Below are positions 12,343 through 20,266 of a stretch of DNA of 64,000 nucleotides, in pieces. The DNA is from Pelomonas sp. Root1444 (lineage in GTDB: Bacteria > Pseudomonadota > Gammaproteobacteria > Burkholderiales > Burkholderiaceae_C). The stretch's first letter is position 1; every line of letters starts with the position of its first letter. The position numbers were made by a program, and so were the translations under genes. The stretch covers positions 1,158,174-1,222,173 of the forward strand of contig NZ_LMFP01000028.1 in the NCBI RefSeq assembly GCF_001426885.1, read 5' to 3'. The notes under the pieces were generated by a model. It saw only the letters and a program-made list of their open reading frames with translations. It was not told the origin of the DNA and searched no databases.

Positions 12343-14601
12343 TTGAAAACCCCCGCCCTCGCCTCGTTGCTTCTGCTCAGCCCCGTCCTGGCTCTGGCTC
12401 AGCAGGAGGTCGACCGCGCTGCCGCCACGCCCACGCCGGGCAACCAGCAGCTCGAGCGCGTGTCGGTGACGCGCCAACAGACCGACACCGACCTGCGCCG
12501 CCGCCAGCCGGTGGCCAAGCAGCTCTACGGCCGCGACGAGCTGGACAAGTACGGCGACACGCAGCTGTCCGACGTGCTCAAGCGCCTGCCGGGCATCAAC
12601 GTCTCCGGCGGCCAGCTGCGCATGCGGGGCCTGGGCGGTGCCTACACGCAGATCCTGGTCAACGGCGAGCCCGCGCCGCCGGGGTTCAGCCTCGACAACC
12701 TGAACCCCGCGCAGGTCGAGCGCCTGGAGGTCAGCAAGGCCCCGACCGCCGACCAGAGCGCGCAAGCCATCGCCGGCACGCTGAACATCATCCTGAAGGA
12801 CGCGCCACGGGTCGTGCAGAAGGACCTGCGCGTGGGAATGGCCTATGCCAGCGAGAAGCCGGTCCTCAATGCCGGCTTCACGTATGGCGACCGCATCGTC
12901 GGCGGCCTCGGCTTCGTGCTGCCGATCTCGATCAACCAGTGGAACTTCGTCAACGAGAGCAGCGGAGACCGCGTGCGTGACAAGGGCCTCACCGGCCTGC
13001 GCAACGAGGGCCGCGACCGCTCGTTCGGCCACGGCTTCAACATGTCACCGCGCCTGAACTGGAAACTGGGCGACGACGAGACGCTGTCGGTGCAGGGCTT
13101 CTTCGTGCAGAACCGCTTCCGCAGCGAGGGGGAGAACACCACCGACGTGGTGTTCGAGGACCAGAGCAAGCCGAGCAAGAGCGTGATCCCGCCGAGCCTG
13201 CTCGACAACACCCGTAACCGCGGCACCTTCCAGGCCCAGCGCCTCAACCTGCAATACAACAACCGCTTCGGCGAAGACCGCCGCATCGAGCTGCGCGCTG
13301 GCGTCGGCAGCGGCGGTGCGGACTTCAACTTCGAGTTCTTCGGCCGCAACAAGGACGGCACCCCGGCCATTGACCGCGTCACGTCGGGCGACAACCGCAA
13401 CCGCAATGCGACGCTGTCGGGCAAGTACAGCCAGTACGCTGGCGAGGCTCACACCATCACGACCGGCGCCGAGCTCGAACGCCGCACCCGCGACGAGATC
13501 CGCAGCACGCGGCAGTTCGACTACCGCAAGGGGACCGAAGCGAAGTGGGAGGATCTGCTGACCGGCGTCGAAGGCCAGCCCTTCAACGCGACGATCACGC
13601 GCTCGGCCGTTTACGTGCAGGACGAGTGGGAGATCAACAACCAGTGGTCGGCCTACGCCGGCGTGCGCCACGAGCAGATCCAGACGGCAAGCGAAGGCCA
13701 GGCCAGCCAGTTCGAGAGCACCAGCAAGGTGACGACACCGCTGCTCCACCTGAACTTCAAGCCCGACCCCAAGGGCCGCGACCTCGTGCGCGCCAGCCTC
13801 ACGCGCAGCTACAAGGCGGCCGACGTGCAGCAGCTGATTGCCCGGCCGACCGTCAACACCGACTACGAGGTGCGCGGGCCCAACGCCCGCATCAACACCG
13901 AACTCGGCCCCGACCGCATCGGCAACCCGCAGCTCAAGCCTGAGCTGGCCACCGGGCTGGACGTGGCCTACGAGAAGTACCTGCCGGCAGGCGGCCTCAT
14001 CTCGGTCGGCGTCTTCCACCGCCGCATCACCAACCTGATCCGCACCGACCGCCCGCGGCTGATGACGGTGGACTATGCGGACACGCAGCGCTACGTCATC
14101 ACCCAGGTCAATCTCAGCAAGGCCACGACCCAGGGCCTGGAGATGGAGGTCAAGGGCCGCGCCAGCGAACTGTTCCCCAGCCTCTTCGAGCCCAGCACCA
14201 ACCTCAACCTGCGTGCGTCGCTGAATCTCTACCGGTCCACGGTCGCGGACATTCCCGGCCCCGACAACCGCCTGGAAGGCCAGCAGCCCTGGCAGTTCAA
14301 CTTCGGTGCCGACTACCGCATGAAGAGCCTGCCGGTCAGCATGGGCTTCAGCGCCCAGATCGCACCCGAGTTCGACGTCCGACAAAGCGTGCTGCAGAGC
14401 CAGACCTCGCTGGCCGCGCGCTCGCTGGACGCCTTCGCGGCGATGCAGGTCGGCAAGCAGGACAGCGTGCGCGTCAGCGTCAACGGCCTGTTCCAGCCCA
14501 AGCAGGGCACGCGCGTCGTCATCATCGACACGCCCGACTACAACCTGAACCGCCGTGACCCCGTGCCGTGGTGGGCCGTGAACTGGGAACACAAGTTCTG
14601 A
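12343..14601 (+). CDS. TonB-dependent outer-membrane receptor
   Basis: A TonB-dependent receptor for ligand uptake across the outer membrane. I place the start at TTG 12343 rather than at the ATG at 12289: GGAG lies 6 bases upstream, and the product then begins with a clean signal peptide (MKTPALASLLLLSPVLALAQ), giving 752 residues. The plug domain spans about 45-150 (LSDVLKRLPGINVSGGQLRMRGLGG, ILVNGEPAPPG, AQAIAGTLNIILKD). The rest is beta-barrel ending in the C-terminal aromatic WEHKF expected for BAM-dependent insertion. A siderophore-type ligand is possible but unproven; no dedicated iron gene is adjacent. Confidence 0.9.
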   Translation: MKTPALASLLLLSPVLALAQQEVDRAAATPTPGNQQLERVSVTRQQTDTDLRRRQPVAKQLYGRDELDKYGDTQLSDVLKRLPGINVSGGQLRMRGLGGAYTQILVNGEPAPPGFSLDNLNPAQVERLEVSKAPTADQSAQAIAGTLNIILKDAPRVVQKDLRVGMAYASEKPVLNAGFTYGDRIVGGLGFVLPISINQWNFVNESSGDRVRDKGLTGLRNEGRDRSFGHGFNMSPRLNWKLGDDETLSVQGFFVQNRFRSEGENTTDVVFEDQSKPSKSVIPPSLLDNTRNRGTFQAQRLNLQYNNRFGEDRRIELRAGVGSGGADFNFEFFGRNKDGTPAIDRVTSGDNRNRNATLSGKYSQYAGEAHTITTGAELERRTRDEIRSTRQFDYRKGTEAKWEDLLTGVEGQPFNATITRSAVYVQDEWEINNQWSAYAGVRHEQIQTASEGQASQFESTSKVTTPLLHLNFKPDPKGRDLVRASLTRSYKAADVQQLIARPTVNTDYEVRGPNARINTELGPDRIGNPQLKPELATGLDVAYEKYLPAGGLISVGVFHRRITNLIRTDRPRLMTVDYADTQRYVITQVNLSKATTQGLEMEVKGRASELFPSLFEPSTNLNLRASLNLYRSTVADIPGPDNRLEGQQPWQFNFGADYRMKSLPVSMGFSAQIAPEFDVRQSVLQSQTSLAARSLDAFAAMQVGKQDSVRVSVNGLFQPKQGTRVVIIDTPDYNLNRRDPVPWWAVNWEHKF

Positions 14602-14620
14602 TCCCCGCTATCTTCCAAGC

Positions 14621-15709
14621 ATGAGCTCGGGCGCCCTGCAGGTCTTTGCCGGCCCCGCCGCGAAAGCGCGGCTGGCGGAGCGCGGCCTGCGCGCCGACGA
14701 CGTCGGGTTGATACCTGCCGCTGCCGGCGGTCCGAAGGGGCTGATCCTCAACGGGCTGGACCGCTATGTCTTCGGCGACTGGCTGCCGCAAAGCCGCCAG
14801 ACCGTGCACCTCGTCGGCGCCAGCATCGGCGCGTGGCGCATGGCCACCGCTGCACTGGCCCACCGCGACGTCACCGCGGCGTTCGACACGATGGCCGAGG
14901 CTTACGTGACGCAGGAGTACGACGTGCTGCCCGGCGAGAAGCGACCGCGGCCGGAAGGGGTCAGCCGGCGCTTCGGAGAGATCCTGGCCGAGATCTTCGA
15001 AGGCCGCGAGACCGAGGTGCTGGCGCATCCGCGTTGGCGGCTGCACGTCGTCACGTCGCGAGGTCGCGCCGGGCTGCTCGCGCGCGAGGGCAGGCTGCGC
15101 ACCCCGCTGGGCTACCTCGGCGCCTTCGCGGCCAATGCCGTGTCGCGCCCGCTGCTGGGCCGCTTCCTGGAGCGCGTCGTCTTCTCCGACCCGCGCGACC
15201 GCCTGCCGCTGAAGCTCAACGACTTCACCAGCCGCGAGGTGCACCTGTCGCGCGCCAACCTCCGCGGCGCGCTGCTGGCGAGCTGCTCCATCCCTTTCTG
15301 GCTGCAAGCCCAGCATGACCTGCCCGGCGCGCCGCGGGGTGCCTACTGGGATGGCGGCATCACCGACTACCACCTGCACCTGGACTACCGGGCGCTGCAG
15401 CAAGCGCACGCGCCGTTGGTGCTCTATCCGCATTTCCAGCGCCAGGTCGTCCCGGGCTGGCTGGACAAGGCGCTCAAGCACCGCCACCGCTCGACCGTGT
15501 TCCTCGACAACGTCGTGCTGCTGTGCCCGTCGCCCGAGTGGATCGACCGGTTGCCGGGCAGCAAGCTGCCCGACCGCAACGACTTCATCAAGCTGGACGC
15601 CGGCGAACGCCGCCGCCGCTGGCGCGTCGCCGTGGGCGAAAGCCAGCGACTGGCCGATGAGTTCGTCGCGTTGGCGCAGCGCGACTCGATTTCAGCGCTG
15701 CCGCTTTAG
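14621..15709 (+). CDS. Patatin-like phospholipase family protein
   Basis: A 362-residue patatin-fold lipid acyl hydrolase. The oxyanion-hole loop AAGGPKGL lies at about residues 34-41, the nucleophile elbow G-A-S68-I-G at 66-70, and the second member of the Ser-Asp dyad is Asp244 in YWDGG. There is no signal peptide or membrane anchor, so it is probably cytoplasmic. It follows the receptor gene by 19 bp and its stop is close to the likely promoter of the thrS leader. Substrate unknown. Confidence 0.85.
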   Translation: MSSGALQVFAGPAAKARLAERGLRADDVGLIPAAAGGPKGLILNGLDRYVFGDWLPQSRQTVHLVGASIGAWRMATAALAHRDVTAAFDTMAEAYVTQEYDVLPGEKRPRPEGVSRRFGEILAEIFEGRETEVLAHPRWRLHVVTSRGRAGLLAREGRLRTPLGYLGAFAANAVSRPLLGRFLERVVFSDPRDRLPLKLNDFTSREVHLSRANLRGALLASCSIPFWLQAQHDLPGAPRGAYWDGGITDYHLHLDYRALQQAHAPLVLYPHFQRQVVPGWLDKALKHRHRSTVFLDNVVLLCPSPEWIDRLPGSKLPDRNDFIKLDAGERRRRWRVAVGESQRLADEFVALAQRDSISALPL

Positions 15710-15766
15710 AATCCGCGCTCCACCCCTCAAGACTCCTTTAACAAGAGCGAGAAAGGCACCCTGGTT

Positions 15767-15814
15767 ATGACACCGCGAACTACGACCACCTTCACCGGCA
15801 CCACCGGTAACTAG
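15767..15814 (+). CDS. Threonine-rich leader peptide of thrS
   Basis: A 15-codon ORF encoding MTPRTTTTFTGTTGN, with 8 threonines including four in tandem, then TAG. It lies 93 bp before thrS and is followed by a strong intrinsic terminator, the arrangement of a ribosome-mediated transcription attenuator. AAAGG lies about 10 bases upstream as a possible ribosome-binding site. Low charged tRNA-Thr should stall the ribosome on the Thr codons and allow read-through into the synthetase gene. The leader is too short for ordinary gene finders. Confidence 0.8.
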   Translation: MTPRTTTTFTGTTGN

Positions 15815-15817
15815 TCG

Positions 15818-15886
15818 GCCGCGGCTCGTCACGCCAGTCCTTTTCGGACTTCACCAATCAAGCGCGGCAAGTGGCCGCGCTTTTTT
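15818..15886 (+). promoter_or_regulatory. thrS transcription attenuator (antiterminator/terminator)
   Basis: The terminator is a perfect 9-bp stem AAGCGCGGC (15860-15868)/GCCGCGCTT (15874-15882) with a 5-base loop, running into TTTTTT at 15881-15886. GCCGCG at 15818-15823, just after the leader stop, is complementary to CGCGGC (15863-15868) in the terminator's 5' arm and could form an antiterminator. A small hairpin AGTCC-TTTTC-GGACT sits between them (15836-15850). The last leader codons can also fold (ACCGG/CCGGT), a candidate for the region competing with the antiterminator. Confidence 0.75.
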
Positions 15887-15907
15887 GTTTTCGCTCCCGG
15901 AGCACCC

Positions 15908-17815
15908 ATGATCTCGATTCAACTCCCCGACGGCTCGCGCCGTGAATACCCCGCCGCGCTGACCGTTGGCGACGTTGCCGCCAGCATCGGCGCCGGCCTG
16001 GCCAAGGCCGCTTTAGGCGGCAAGGTGGACGGCAAGGTCGTCGACCTTAGCCACGTCATAGCCCACGACGCCCAGGTCGCCATCGTTACCGAGAAGGATG
16101 CCGACGGCCTGGAGCTGATCCGCCACTCGACGGCCCACTTGCTGGCCTATGCCGTCAAGTCGCTCTACCCCGACGCGCAGGTGACCATCGGCCCGGTCAT
16201 CGAGAACGGCTTCTATTACGACTTCGCCTACAAGCGCCCCTTCACGCCGGACGACCTGGCCGCCATCGAGGCCAAGATGACGGAGCTCGCGAAAAAGGAT
16301 GAGAAGGTCGTGCGCCGCGTGCTGCCGCGCGACGAGGCCGTGGCGCATTTCAAGGCCATGGGCGAGGCCTACAAGGCGGAGATCATCGAAAGCATCCCGG
16401 CCGACCAAGACGTGTCGCTGTACGCGGAAGGCGCCTTCGAGGACCTCTGCCGCGGTCCACACGTGCCCAGCACCGGCAAGCTCAAGCACTTCAAGCTGAT
16501 GAAGGTGGCCGGCGCCTATTGGCGCGGCGACCACCGCAATGAGCAACTGCAGCGCATCTACGGCACGGCCTGGGCCACCAAGGACGACCTGCAGAAGTAC
16601 CTGACGATGCTGGAGGAGGCCGAGAAGCGCGACCACCGCAAGCTCGGCAAGGAGCTGGACCTCTTCCACATCGACGAGCACGCCCCGGGCGTCGTCTTCT
16701 GGCACCCCAAGGGCTGGACAGTCTGGCAGGAGGTGGAGCAGTACATGCGCCGCGTCTACCGCGACAACGGCTACCAGGAGGTCAAGGGCCCGCAGCTGCT
16801 GGACCGCACGCTGTGGGAAGCCTCGGGCCACTGGGAGAAGTACAAGGACAACATGTTCACGACGGAGTCGGAGAAGCGCGACTACGCGCTCAAGCCGATG
16901 AACTGTCCCGGTCACATCCTGATCTTCAAGCAGGGCGTCAAGAGCTACCGCGACCTGCCGCTGCGCTACGGCGAGTTCGGCCAGTGCCACCGCAACGAGC
17001 CCACGGGCGGTCTGCACGGCATCATGCGGGTGCGCGGCTTCACGCAGGACGACGGGCACATCTTCTGCACCGAAGACCAGATCCTGCCGGAATGCGTCGC
17101 CTACACGGCGCTGCTGCAGAAGGTCTACAAGGACTTCGGCTTCACCGATATCATTTACAAGGTGGCGACGCGCCCGGACGCCCGCATCGGTTCGGACGAG
17201 GTCTGGGACAAGGCCGAGCATGCGCTGATGGAAAGCCTGCGCGCCTCCGGCGTCGAGTTCGAGGTCGCACCTGGCGACGGCGCCTTCTACGGCCCCAAGA
17301 TCGAATACACGCTCAAGGACGCGCTGGGCCGTCAGTGGCAGTGCGGCACGATGCAGGTCGACTTCTCGATGCCGGGCCGCCTGGGCGCCGAGTTCGTCGA
17401 CGAGGATGGCCAGCACAAGCACCCGGTCATACTGCACCGCGCCATCGTGGGCAGCCTGGAGCGTTTCATCGGCATCCTGATCGAACAGCACGCCGGCGCG
17501 CTGCCCGTCTGGCTCGCGCCGACGCAGGTCGTGGTGGCCAACATCACCGATTCCCAGGCCGATTACGTGTCTGAAATTGTGAAATCGCTGCAAAAACAAG
17601 GGGTTAGGGCCCAGGCCGATTTGCGCAACGAGAAGATCACCTATAAAATCCGCCAGCATTCCATGCAAAAGCTGCCGTACATCCTCGTCGTAGGCGACAA
17701 GGAAAAGGCGAATGGCAGCGTTGCGGTACGCGCCCGTGGCAATCAGGATCTGGGCGTGATGCCTTTGCAAGACTTCCTCTCGAGAGTCTGTGCAGACATC
17801 GCGAACAAGGTCTGA
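15908..17815 (+). CDS. thrS: Threonine--tRNA ligase
   Basis: A 635-residue class II aminoacyl-tRNA synthetase that charges tRNA-Thr. Domains in order: TGS (about 1-62), the second N-terminal editing domain containing the [11 protein letters not shown] motif (about 63-240), the catalytic core with MNCPGH (zinc-ligand Cys) and the motif 2 region [20 protein letters not shown] near residues 360-380, and the anticodon-binding domain (about 535-635). GGAG lies 5 bases before ATG 15908. It heads the thrS-infC-rpmI-rplT-pheST-ihfA translation block and is preceded by a Thr-codon attenuator. Confidence 0.98.
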
Positions 17816-17883
17816 CAAGCCGTCCGGGCGCGATTTGTTTTGTTTGGGCTCCTCGCCTTGGGGCCCGTTGAAAGGTCTACACC

Positions 17884-18429
17884 ATCGCTACGTTTGCCGA
17901 CCGTCGTGCGATTCCGGAGCGCAAGCACCGGTTGAACCGCGAAATCATGGCCCCTGAAGTCCGTCTGAACGGCCCCGAAAACGAACCCATCGGGGTCGTC
18001 AGCATCCAGGAAGCCCTGCGTATGGCGGGCGAAATGGATGTGGACCTGGTCGAGATCTCCGCCACCGCCAATCCGCCGGTCTGCCGGCTGATGGACTACG
18101 GCAAGTTCAAGTACCAGGAACAAAAGCGCGCTGCTGAAGCCAAGTCCAAGCAGAAGATCATCGAAATCAAGGAAGTCAAATTCCGTCCGGGCACGGACGA
18201 AGGCGACTACCAGATCAAGATGCGCAATCTGCGCCGCTTCATCGCTGAAGACGGTGACAAGGGCAAGGTCACGCTGCGCTACCGAGGCCGTGAAATCACC
18301 CACCAGGACATCGGCATGCGCCTGCTGGAGCGGATCCGCGATGAACTGGCCGACGTGGCGATCGTCGAGAACATGCCGAAGCTCGAAGGTCGGCAGATGA
18401 TCATGGTCCTGGCGCCGAAAAAGCGCTGA
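17884..18429 (+). CDS. infC: Translation initiation factor IF-3 (AUC start)
   Basis: A 181-residue IF-3, which binds the 30S subunit and enforces start-codon fidelity. The recognisable protein ([19 protein letters not shown]...) has no ATG or GTG at a sensible N-terminus. In frame, ATC at 17884 lies 7 bases after AAAGGT (17871-17876) and gives the family-like N-terminus (M)[17 protein letters not shown]. An in-frame TTG at 17932 lacks a good ribosome-binding site. Rare AUU-type starts are the known basis of infC autoregulation in E. coli. The N-domain spans about 15-85 ([15 protein letters not shown]) and the C-domain 95-181 ([12 protein letters not shown] to MVLAPKKR). Confidence 0.93.
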
Positions 18430-18445
18430 GACCGCAACAGGTTTG

Positions 18446-18516
18446 ACTGGTCGGTTTGGTCGCCGGCCAGTTCACAAGTCTCCTGAGGCCAACAAGCATG
18501 CCGGGCTCACCGGCAT
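18446..18516 (+). promoter_or_regulatory. Paired hairpins in the infC-rpmI spacer (possible L20 control site)
   Basis: Two stems fill the 120-bp spacer: ACTGGTCGG (18446-18454)/CCGGCCAGT (18463-18471) with one G-U pair, and ATGCCGG (18498-18504)/CCGGCAT (18510-18516) with a 5-base loop. Neither has a T-run, so they are unlikely terminators. In E. coli, ribosomal protein L20 represses rpmI-rplT translation through structured RNA upstream of rpmI; these hairpins are in the right place, but sequence homology was not checked. Confidence 0.4.
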
Positions 18517-18549
18517 CGCCCCAGGGACACACTTAGAAGGAGCATCCCC

Positions 18550-18753
18550 ATGCCCAAAATGAAGACCAAGAGCAGCGCGAAAAAACGTTTTCGCGTTCGT
18601 CCGGGTGGCACCGTCAAGCGCGGTCAGGCGTTCAAGCGCCACATCCTGACCAAGAAGACCACGAAGAACAAGCGCCAGCTCCGCGGCGCCGTCACCGTGC
18701 ACGAAACCAACATGGGTCACATCGCTCAGATGCTGCCCTTTGCTGGCCTGTAA
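18550..18753 (+). CDS. rpmI: 50S ribosomal protein L35
   Basis: A 67-residue basic ribosomal protein starting [16 protein letters not shown], the near-invariant L35 N-terminus, and continuing [32 protein letters not shown] precedes ATG 18550. It lies between infC and rplT as in most proteobacteria and is co-expressed with L20. Confidence 0.98.
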
Positions 18754-18779
18754 TTCATCACTGACTCAAGGAGAAACAC

Positions 18780-19136
18780 ATGCCTCGCGTCAAACGTGGT
18801 GTAACCGCTCGTGCCCGTCACAAGAAGGTCTTGGCTCTGGCCAAGGGCTTCCGGGGTCGTCGTAAGAACGTCTTCCGCATCGCCAAGCAGGCGGTGATGA
18901 AGGCGGGCCAATACGCCTACCGTGACCGCCGTACCAAGAAGCGCGTTTTCCGTCAGCTCTGGATCGCCCGTATCAACGCTGCATCGCGTGGTCTGGGTCT
19001 GTCCTACAGCAAGTTCGTGGCGGGTCTGAAGAAGGCCCAGATCGAGATCGACCGCAAGGTTCTCGCCGATCTGGCCGTCAACGACCCGGCTGGCTTTGCC
19101 AGCATCTTCGCCAAGGTGAAGGCCGCGCTCGCCTGA
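18780..19136 (+). CDS. rplT: 50S ribosomal protein L20
   Basis: A 118-residue rRNA-binding protein that is essential for early 50S assembly and, in E. coli, represses its own operon. Begins [18 protein letters not shown] and contains [24 protein letters not shown], both diagnostic. AAGGAGAAACAC precedes the ATG. It is followed by two hairpins before pheS. Confidence 0.98.
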
Positions 19137-19145
19137 TTGCGATTC

Positions 19146-19208
19146 GCCTCGACTCACGTCGGGGCACGCAAACTTTCAGGGCCGGCCCACCAGGGTCGGC
19201 CCTTTCTC
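19146..19208 (+). terminator. Tandem hairpins between rplT and pheS
   Basis: The first hairpin is GCCTCGAC (19146-19153)/GTCGGGGC (19158-19165) with loop TCAC and one G-U pair. The second is AGGGCCGGC (19178-19186)/GTCGGCCCT (19195-19203) running into TTTCTC, a good intrinsic-terminator shape ending only 15-20 bp before the pheS ATG. It probably reduces transcription into pheST. No Phe-rich leader peptide, as found in E. coli (pheM), is visible in front of it. Confidence 0.55.
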
Positions 19209-19222
19209 ATTTCGAATTCCGA

Positions 19223-20266
19223 ATGTCTGATCTCGACGCTCTTCTTGATGCGGCCCGAAGCGATTTCGCCGCCGCACCGACGCCAGCCGAACTCGAAAAC
19301 GCCAAGGCGCGCTTCCTCGGCAAGTCAGGCCGCGTGACCGAACTGATGAAGGGCCTGGGCGCTCTCAGCATCGAGGAGAAGAAGACCCGCGGCGCCGAGA
19401 TCAACCAGCTCAAGGTCGGCATCGAGGCCGCCCTGACTGCCCGCCGCGATGCGCTGGCGGCTGCCGAGTTGGAAAAGCAGCTCAAGGCCGAAGCGCTGGA
19501 CGTGACCTTGCCCGGCCGGCAGCGCGGCACAGGCGGCTTGCATCCGATCACACGCGCCATGGAGCGCATCGAGGCCATCTTCGGCTCGATGGGCTTCGAC
19601 GTGGCCGACGGCCCCGAGATCGAGACCGACTGGTACAGCTTCTCGGCGCTCAACAACCCCGAGAACCACCCCGCCCGCTCGATGCAGGACACGTTCTACG
19701 TCGACATGAAGGACGAGAACGGCGCCTGGCTGAACCTGCGCCCGCACACCAGCCCGATGCAGATCCGCTACGCGCAGGCCCATGCCAAGCGCTACGCGGG
19801 GCAGGACACGATGCCCCAGATCCGCGTCATCGCGCCGGGCCGCACCTACCGCGTCGACAGCGATGCCACCCACTCGCCGATGTTCCACCAGGTTGAAGGC
19901 CTGTGGGTTGGCGAGAACATCTCGTTCAAGGACCTGAAGGCGGTCTACCTGAACTTCATCACCGCCTTCTTCGAGACCGACCAGCTGCAGCTGCGCTTTC
20001 GCCCCAGCTATTTCCCTTTCACCGAACCCAGCGCCGAGATCGACATCATGTTCGAGAGCGGACCGTTGAAGGGCCGCTGGCTGGAGGTGTCGGGCTCCGG
20101 CCAGGTGCACCCGCAGGTCATCCGCAACATGGGCCTGGACCCGGAGCGCTACATCGGCTTCGCCTTCGGCTCGGGCATCGACCGCCTGGCCATGCTGCGC
20201 TATGGCGTCAACGACCTGCGCGCCTTCTTCGACGGCGACCTCCGCTTCCTCTCGCAGTTCAAGTAA
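19223..20266 (+). CDS. pheS: Phenylalanine--tRNA ligase alpha subunit
   Basis: A 347-residue catalytic subunit of the alpha2-beta2 PheRS. An N-terminal coiled-coil arm (about 1-90) binds tRNA-Phe. The class II catalytic core follows, with [20 protein letters not shown] near 110, [13 protein letters not shown] near 173 (motif 2 area), and motif 3 in [22 protein letters not shown] near the C-terminus. Its stop precedes pheT by only 13 bp. Confidence 0.97.

Follow-up and report, generated by a model that had tools for sequence, protein, structure and literature searches.

A threonine-rich leader peptide and terminator as a probable ribosome-mediated attenuator of thrS in Pelomonas sp. Root1444 and other Burkholderiales

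A short, threonine-rich open reading frame (ORF) and a terminator ahead of thrS in Pelomonas sp. Root1444 very probably form a ribosome-mediated transcription attenuator of thrS and the genes behind it, which probably switches thrS on when charged tRNA-Thr is scarce. The analysis covered a 64,000-nt stretch of contig NZ_LMFP01000028.1 (the window; all positions below refer to it) together with the thrS upstream regions of related genomes. The preliminary description had read this region as such an attenuator, a reading that conservation among relatives, in-frame enrichment of Thr codons and co-variation of the antiterminator now support. From the anatomy of the region and its evolution the attenuation mechanism appears well supported; from the same material we infer the promoter, translation of the leader, stalling, regulated termination and the sensing of charged tRNA-Thr by the ribosome.

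Table 1. Features of the thrS leader region in the window; the regions are numbered 5' to 3'.
Feature	Position	Strand	Remarks
Candidate -10 (TAGAAT) of the putative leader promoter	15707..15712	+	Read from the sequence
Candidate Shine-Dalgarno AAAGG of the leader ORF	15752..15756	+	10 nt 5' of the ATG
Leader peptide ORF	ATG 15767 to TAG 15812-15814	+	15 codons, MTPRTTTTFTGTTGN, 8 Thr, four consecutive
Region 1 (codons 3-7), protector 5' strand	15773..15786	+	Predicted fold
Region 2	15814..15824	+	Begins with the third base of the leader TAG; partner of region 1 or region 3
Region 3, terminator 5' arm	15860..15868	+	CGCGGC 15863-15868 is the antiterminator partner of region 2
Region 4	15874..15886	+	Terminator 3' arm 15874-15882, T run 15881-15886
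thrS, threonyl-tRNA synthetase	15908..17815	+	ORF; first gene behind the attenuator

The elements named in the preliminary description were all located (Table 1): the ORF with its eight Thr codons lies at 15767-15814 as claimed; GCCGCG (15818-15823), which had been called antiterminator-capable, is complementary to CGCGGC in the 5' arm of the terminator; and the perfect 9-bp terminator with six Ts ahead of thrS was confirmed at 15860-15886. This intrinsic terminator, AAGCGCGGC-AAGTG-GCCGCGCTT (15860-15882, 9 pairs, with the six Ts ending at 15886), stands between the ORF and the structural gene, 21 nt separating the T run from the thrS ATG, and the gene order that follows is thrS, infC, rplT, pheS and pheT (names read from the translations). 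The Pelomonas genome (5.9 Mb, 33 contigs) contains one full-length thrS match, the second being partial and weak (24% identity), and a sequence model of the leader start matches one place in it. An alignment of 31 sequences, one of them from the window, gives the consensus GAGAAAGGCA, which contains the AAAGG ahead of the leader. A -10 pattern, TAN[AG][AC]T, was found at -70 to -35 relative to the leader ATG in 17 of 27 leaders lacking an upstream tRNA gene according to ARAGORN, against a fraction of 0.10 in shuffles, and in 8 of 10 leaders of the window's own family; no convincing -35 was seen for the leader promoter, and a two-hexamer scan yielded no promoter there.

Region 1 with the first Thr codons, region 2 overlapping the stop codon and a terminator made of regions 3 and 4 together fit classical attenuation. 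RNA polymerase would start just 5' of the leader, with a ribosome trailing it on the leader ORF. Where charged tRNA-Thr is plentiful, the ribosome would reach the TAG stop and cover region 2, or depart and leave regions 1 and 2 to pair; with region 2 so occupied, regions 3 and 4 would pair and transcription would stop at about 15886. Where charged tRNA-Thr is scarce, the ribosome would stall on Thr codons 5-8 and cover region 1, so that region 2 could pair with region 3, the terminator would be blocked and thrS would be transcribed.

The terminator by itself is unremarkable, since this GC-rich stretch contains 2 such structures between 15000 and 18500 against 2.9 expected from shuffles, and the role of chance was therefore judged from relatives. 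Two samples were used: the best 80 of 583 thrS candidate loci from named genomes; and a second sample taken by way of thrS matches, so as to avoid a choice based on the motif, in which thrS was sought in 300 genomes of the same order and found in 295, the upstream regions coming from the 80 best-scoring among the matches listed. Many Burkholderiales among the named-genome loci share a nearly identical leader start, GAGAAAGGCA..GGTTATGACACCGCGAAC. A rule requiring a Thr leader and a terminator, formulated after leaders had been seen, was satisfied by 55 of the 80 best-scoring same-order regions, including 10 of 10 in the window's family, and by 37 of the best 80 named-genome loci (92 in all), against 0 of 2162 control pieces taken from the named loci outside the thrS upstream region. 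Within the window, 1 of 440 pieces of 290 nt passed; the piece 15661-15950 contains the leader and terminator. The remaining 25 of the 80 same-order loci fail the rule, and one pass (L142, family f16) is probably false, its ORF appearing to overlap a tRNA-Val gene. A terminator was present in 69 of these 80 regions with the settings of the residue test described next, or in 66 with those of the rule.

The enrichment of threonine was also evident in a test neutral to the residue, which counted the same residue twice in a row in a short ATG-initiated ORF within the 130 nt ahead of a terminator and compared the counts with dinucleotide shuffles: among the 69 terminator-bearing loci, two consecutive threonines occurred in 38 (1.6 expected), followed by Arg in 10 (4.6 expected), Pro in 9 (1.4) and Phe in 8 (1.3). 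The reading frame gave the same picture in 59 dereplicated leaders beginning MTP[RL]T, a sample selected by peptide: ACN made up 100 of 397 triplets in frame at codons 6-12 and 9 and 12 of 397 triplets, respectively, in the two alternative frames, with all four Thr codons in use. Judged on the sequences, therefore, the ORF appears enriched in the putative regulatory codon both by residue and by frame.

Leaders starting MTPRT recur 5' of thrS in relatives. Their Thr runs are of uneven length: at one extreme the run is just Thr5, at the other it comprises five consecutive threonines. Codons 2-5 show hardly any change, being ACA, CCG, CGA and ACT in 58, 59, 50 and 53 of the 59 leaders, respectively, and some relatives retain Thr2 and Thr5 only (L090, MTPRTWSFHSGL; L092, MTPRTFPSLI). 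Across the leaders compared, the most conserved part is the RNA of codons 2-5 rather than the Thr run length; in sequence model R1, 30 of the 31 leaders were chosen by motif, so that invariance inside the motif is there partly by construction. Leaders of other families differ in sequence and retain threonine: MPRTRTTTGVFSRRG (f38), MFLPLARTTTRNFRPMSR and MNTNTTRTTTTRHT (f4), MRPPTTLQGKTR (f22), MFKRTTTTRISR (Vogesella, L058) and MTPRTCTTTTSHYHRVNP (f34). Stop codons are mixed (TAG 47, TGA 24 and TAA 18; n = 89). The preliminary description had asked for alignment across Burkholderiales to look for a conserved Thr-codon run and stem; that comparison was made and came out in its favour, through the 55 of 80 regions, the recurrence of MTPRT and the top rank of Thr in the residue test. 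This conservation makes a chance origin very unlikely.

Pairing between the regions was analysed in 89 dereplicated leaders of the 92. The mean duplex energy of region 2 with region 3 was -14.0, compared with -12.2 for swapped partners, a value as low as the observed one arising in 0 of 5000 permutations; shuffling region 2 gave -11.23 (sd 0.22). Own pairs were better than cross-family pairs at 46 of 55 loci and in 11 of 12 families (10 of 11 without f16), f34 being the sole family to fail; with one locus per family, the null was as good as the observed pairs in 0.85% of draws. By eye, several antiterminators are altered yet kept: in L021, TGGTCCGCGCA pairs with TGCGCGGCCA around a single bulged base; in L059, CTGAGCC pairs with GGCTCAG; and in L110 (f38), CGAGGCT pairs with AGCTTCG. 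The computed co-variation of regions 2 and 3 thus points to an antiterminator that would be mutually exclusive with the terminator.

A protector pairing of region 1 with region 2, absent from the preliminary description, is also indicated. In the predicted fold of the full leader, CCGCG (15773-15777) and CGAC (15783-15786) pair with 15820-15824 and 15814-15817, respectively, and the terminator also forms. With region 1 defined tightly as codons 3-7, the leader codons pair with region 2 at -11.67, against -9.92 (sd 0.29) for shuffles, 0 of 100 shuffle sets being as good (n = 59), whereas with a wide region 1 the own pairs were not better than swaps (-16.47 vs -16.24), a difference that is not significant. 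In 84 of 89 loci, with the wide region, the two best pairings of region 2 have 3 nt or more in common.

With the 3' arm of the terminator still unmade, the mean computed probability of region 3 pairing upstream was 0.73 for a ribosome stalled on Thr codons, 0.52 for one at the stop codon and 0.68 with no ribosome (n = 89), and its mean with shuffled spacers was 0.58; the window's own values were 0.81, 0.66, 0.62 and 0.66, respectively. A margin of more than 0.05 separated the two ribosome positions in favour of the stalled one in 69 of 89 loci and in favour of the stop codon in 2, a contrast that is consistent with the model and weak taken alone, because the stop state exposes less RNA; stalled and shuffled-spacer versions were equal in the number of loci with a probability above 0.4 (87 of 89 each). 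Equilibrium folds of 17 leaders (L010 left out) retained the terminator under every stall tried in 15, the window included, which means that the antiterminator would have to work co-transcriptionally. The other two, L005 (with stalls at codons 5 and 6) and L014 (also without a stall), adopted an alternative fold with region 3 paired upstream.

The model of the leader start, which detects mainly close relatives, matched 41 of 300 same-order genomes, at one place each, with 10 of 10 in the window's family. The leader and terminator rule reached further: among the 80 best-scoring loci, Thr leaders precede a terminator in 12 of 15 family labels, with passes in f1 (10/10), f22 (9/9), f7 (9/10), f4 (5/5), f3 (3/3), f9 (4/6), f20 (5/7), f38 (5/8), f31 (2/7), f19 (1/5), f34 (1/1) and f16 (1/1, the probably false case) and none in f24 (0/3), f10 (0/4) and f17 (0/1). 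Several loci look like stages of loss: in a Polaromonas locus (L015) ATA replaces the start codon of an otherwise recognisable leader, and five Comamonadaceae-like loci (L007, L018, L019, L022 and L056) keep a hairpin and T run before thrS, an essential gene, without a Thr leader. Outside the order, no comparable leader was found in 28 loci of the class (the best 28 of 113 genomes with thrS). A short ORF with two consecutive or three threonines was present in 4 of the 28 (L166, L171, L180 and L184) and was followed by a terminator in L171 and L184 only, over 70 nt away, and for this reason we do not extend the attenuator beyond the order.

Two further observations were made at these loci. In 41 of the 80 best-scoring loci, and in 0 of 10 of the window's family, by hand count, the 450 nt 5' of thrS include a tRNA-Val (GAC) gene of the same orientation (examples with the gene are L034, L039, L042, L058, L059, L067 and L092), which raises the possibility of a common transcript of tRNA, leader and thrS in many of the relatives. 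At Lysobacterales-like and other gammaproteobacterial loci (L065, L071, L074 and L079), a hairpin follows each of four very short ORFs, MSTTSSQR, MATTRFHC, MSTTPI and MSTINV (the last read by eye), possibly a separate attenuator of thrS.

Other explanations of the same anatomy were weighed. The hairpin might only end transcription of the preceding gene, or be a simple premature terminator, with the Thr ORF arising by chance, a suggestion in keeping with the ordinary frequency of terminators in the stretch and with the Comamonadaceae-like hairpins that lack a Thr leader. Against it, a Thr leader precedes the hairpin at so many loci and in so many family labels, the in-frame enrichment of Thr is strong and a tRNA-Val gene lies upstream in about half of the loci (41/80); taken together, the residue test, the rule counts and the frame test leave this explanation with a very low probability. 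Another possibility is translational repression of the E. coli kind, in which threonyl-tRNA synthetase (ThrRS) would recognise a leader structure resembling tRNA-Thr and the ORF and terminator would be incidental. The enzyme is the same, thrS comes first here as it does in E. coli, the leader start GGTTATG contains a GGU triplet, and E. coli ThrRS binds hairpins 5' of its own start codon in the parts of the sources consulted (PMC3858243, PMC6542539). Here, however, the site just 5' of the thrS ribosome-binding site is taken up by a GC-rich terminator and T run whose loop varies among relatives, which is why we hold such an operator to be unlikely, with a small chance of being right; nor would it need the in-frame Thr enrichment or the antiterminator co-variation. 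An anticodon-arm mimic at GGCAnnnTGGTTATGACACC was considered and rejected, no suitable flanking stem being visible by eye in relatives.

Because conservation centres on MTPRT while the Thr run is variable, an attenuator might instead sense general translation speed, or Arg, Pro and Thr jointly, rather than Thr alone. The presence of CGA at codon 4 in 50 of 59 leaders, the two-Thr leaders and the second rank of Arg when at least three of a residue are counted in a short ORF (20 of 69 loci vs 4.1 expected) are in its favour, but for consecutive pairs Thr stands far above Arg (38 vs 10), and CCGCGAAC doubles as region 1 in the folded RNA, a role that would account for the constancy of these codons; we regard both forms of this idea as very improbable. 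Within the preferred reading, a ribosome-mediated attenuator responding to threonine, the leader start may carry a second signal that controls initiation of the leader, for example through a small hairpin or through a factor, perhaps ThrRS. This idea, which we find rather doubtful, comes from the block GTTATGACACCGCGAAC, which is nearly invariant, reaches over the start codon to a point 5' of the pairing region and survives in two-Thr leaders; if it were true, thrS would have two linked sensors.

Ribosome-mediated attenuators are well known in Proteobacteria, at thrABC, ilvGMEDA, his, leu and trp, and at pheST of E. coli. The thrS leaders share with the classical amino-acid attenuators a short ORF rich in cognate codons, a set of protector, antiterminator and terminator and a stop codon near region 2; they differ in that thrS would be the controlled gene and in that many of them open with a constant MTPRT that supplies the bases of region 1. 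A further difference is that the window's leader gave no relevant Rfam match: a search of 14000-20000 up to E = 5 returned three sub-threshold matches, none relevant, and neither the threonine operon leader (RF00506) nor the T-box covariance model was matched in that interval. In Firmicutes, T-box leaders let tRNA-Thr charging control a terminator before thrS. That input and output are the same as proposed here; a T-box senses the tRNA directly, whereas here the ribosome would do so. Feedback control of the same enzyme would likewise be shared with E. coli, where, according to the parts of the sources consulted, ThrRS keeps its own mRNA from being translated by binding to hairpins ahead of the start codon (PMC3858243, PMC6542539). 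That operator is translational, with ThrRS acting on hairpins near the start codon, and the view in the preliminary description that the control logic differs from autorepression of this kind agrees with the attenuator reading.

The nearest precedent that we found is a possible thrL leader proposed before thrS in Streptomyces lividans, MKRVRPFLETTPGFVPAR, with two Thr codons, a leaderless start and, per its authors, one hairpin without a U-rich sequence (PMC8079986, in the part consulted). It too places Thr codons ahead of thrS, but it belongs to another phylum and by eye has no similarity to the leaders described here. In the parts of the main texts consulted, Naville and Gautheret (2010; PMC2965389) mention threonyl-tRNA synthetase once, as self-regulation in E. 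coli, and the term thrS is absent from Seliverstov et al. (2005; PMC1262725) and from a Shewanella survey (PMC2659441). A search by title and abstract, confined to the open-access literature, found no report of a Thr leader before thrS in Burkholderiales. Attenuation of this kind is already known, and for the Burkholderiales thrS case we found no precedent.

Two features further along the operon are recorded here. The infC gene of the window (17884-18429) has an apparent ATC start codon, and among the 34 of 74 loci at which an infC start was recognised (window included) the starts were ATC in 26, ATA in 6 and TTG in 2, in agreement with the rare start codons for which IF3 genes are known. Just 5' of pheS (19223) a terminator-like hairpin, GGGCCGGCC-CACCAG-GGTCGGCCC followed by TTTCTCATTTC, occupies 19179-19213 and may be a further attenuator within the operon; inspection by eye showed no Phe-rich ORF there.

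In E. coli, thrS is a textbook example of translational autorepression by a synthetase. Across Burkholderiales, the same operon (thrS, IF3, L20 and PheST) would be tied to charged tRNA-Thr by a different mechanism, through a small leader ORF that is likely missed by annotation. The range from Thr-rich leaders through eroded ones to leaderless hairpins would offer a natural series of variants in which the gain and loss of such control may be studied.
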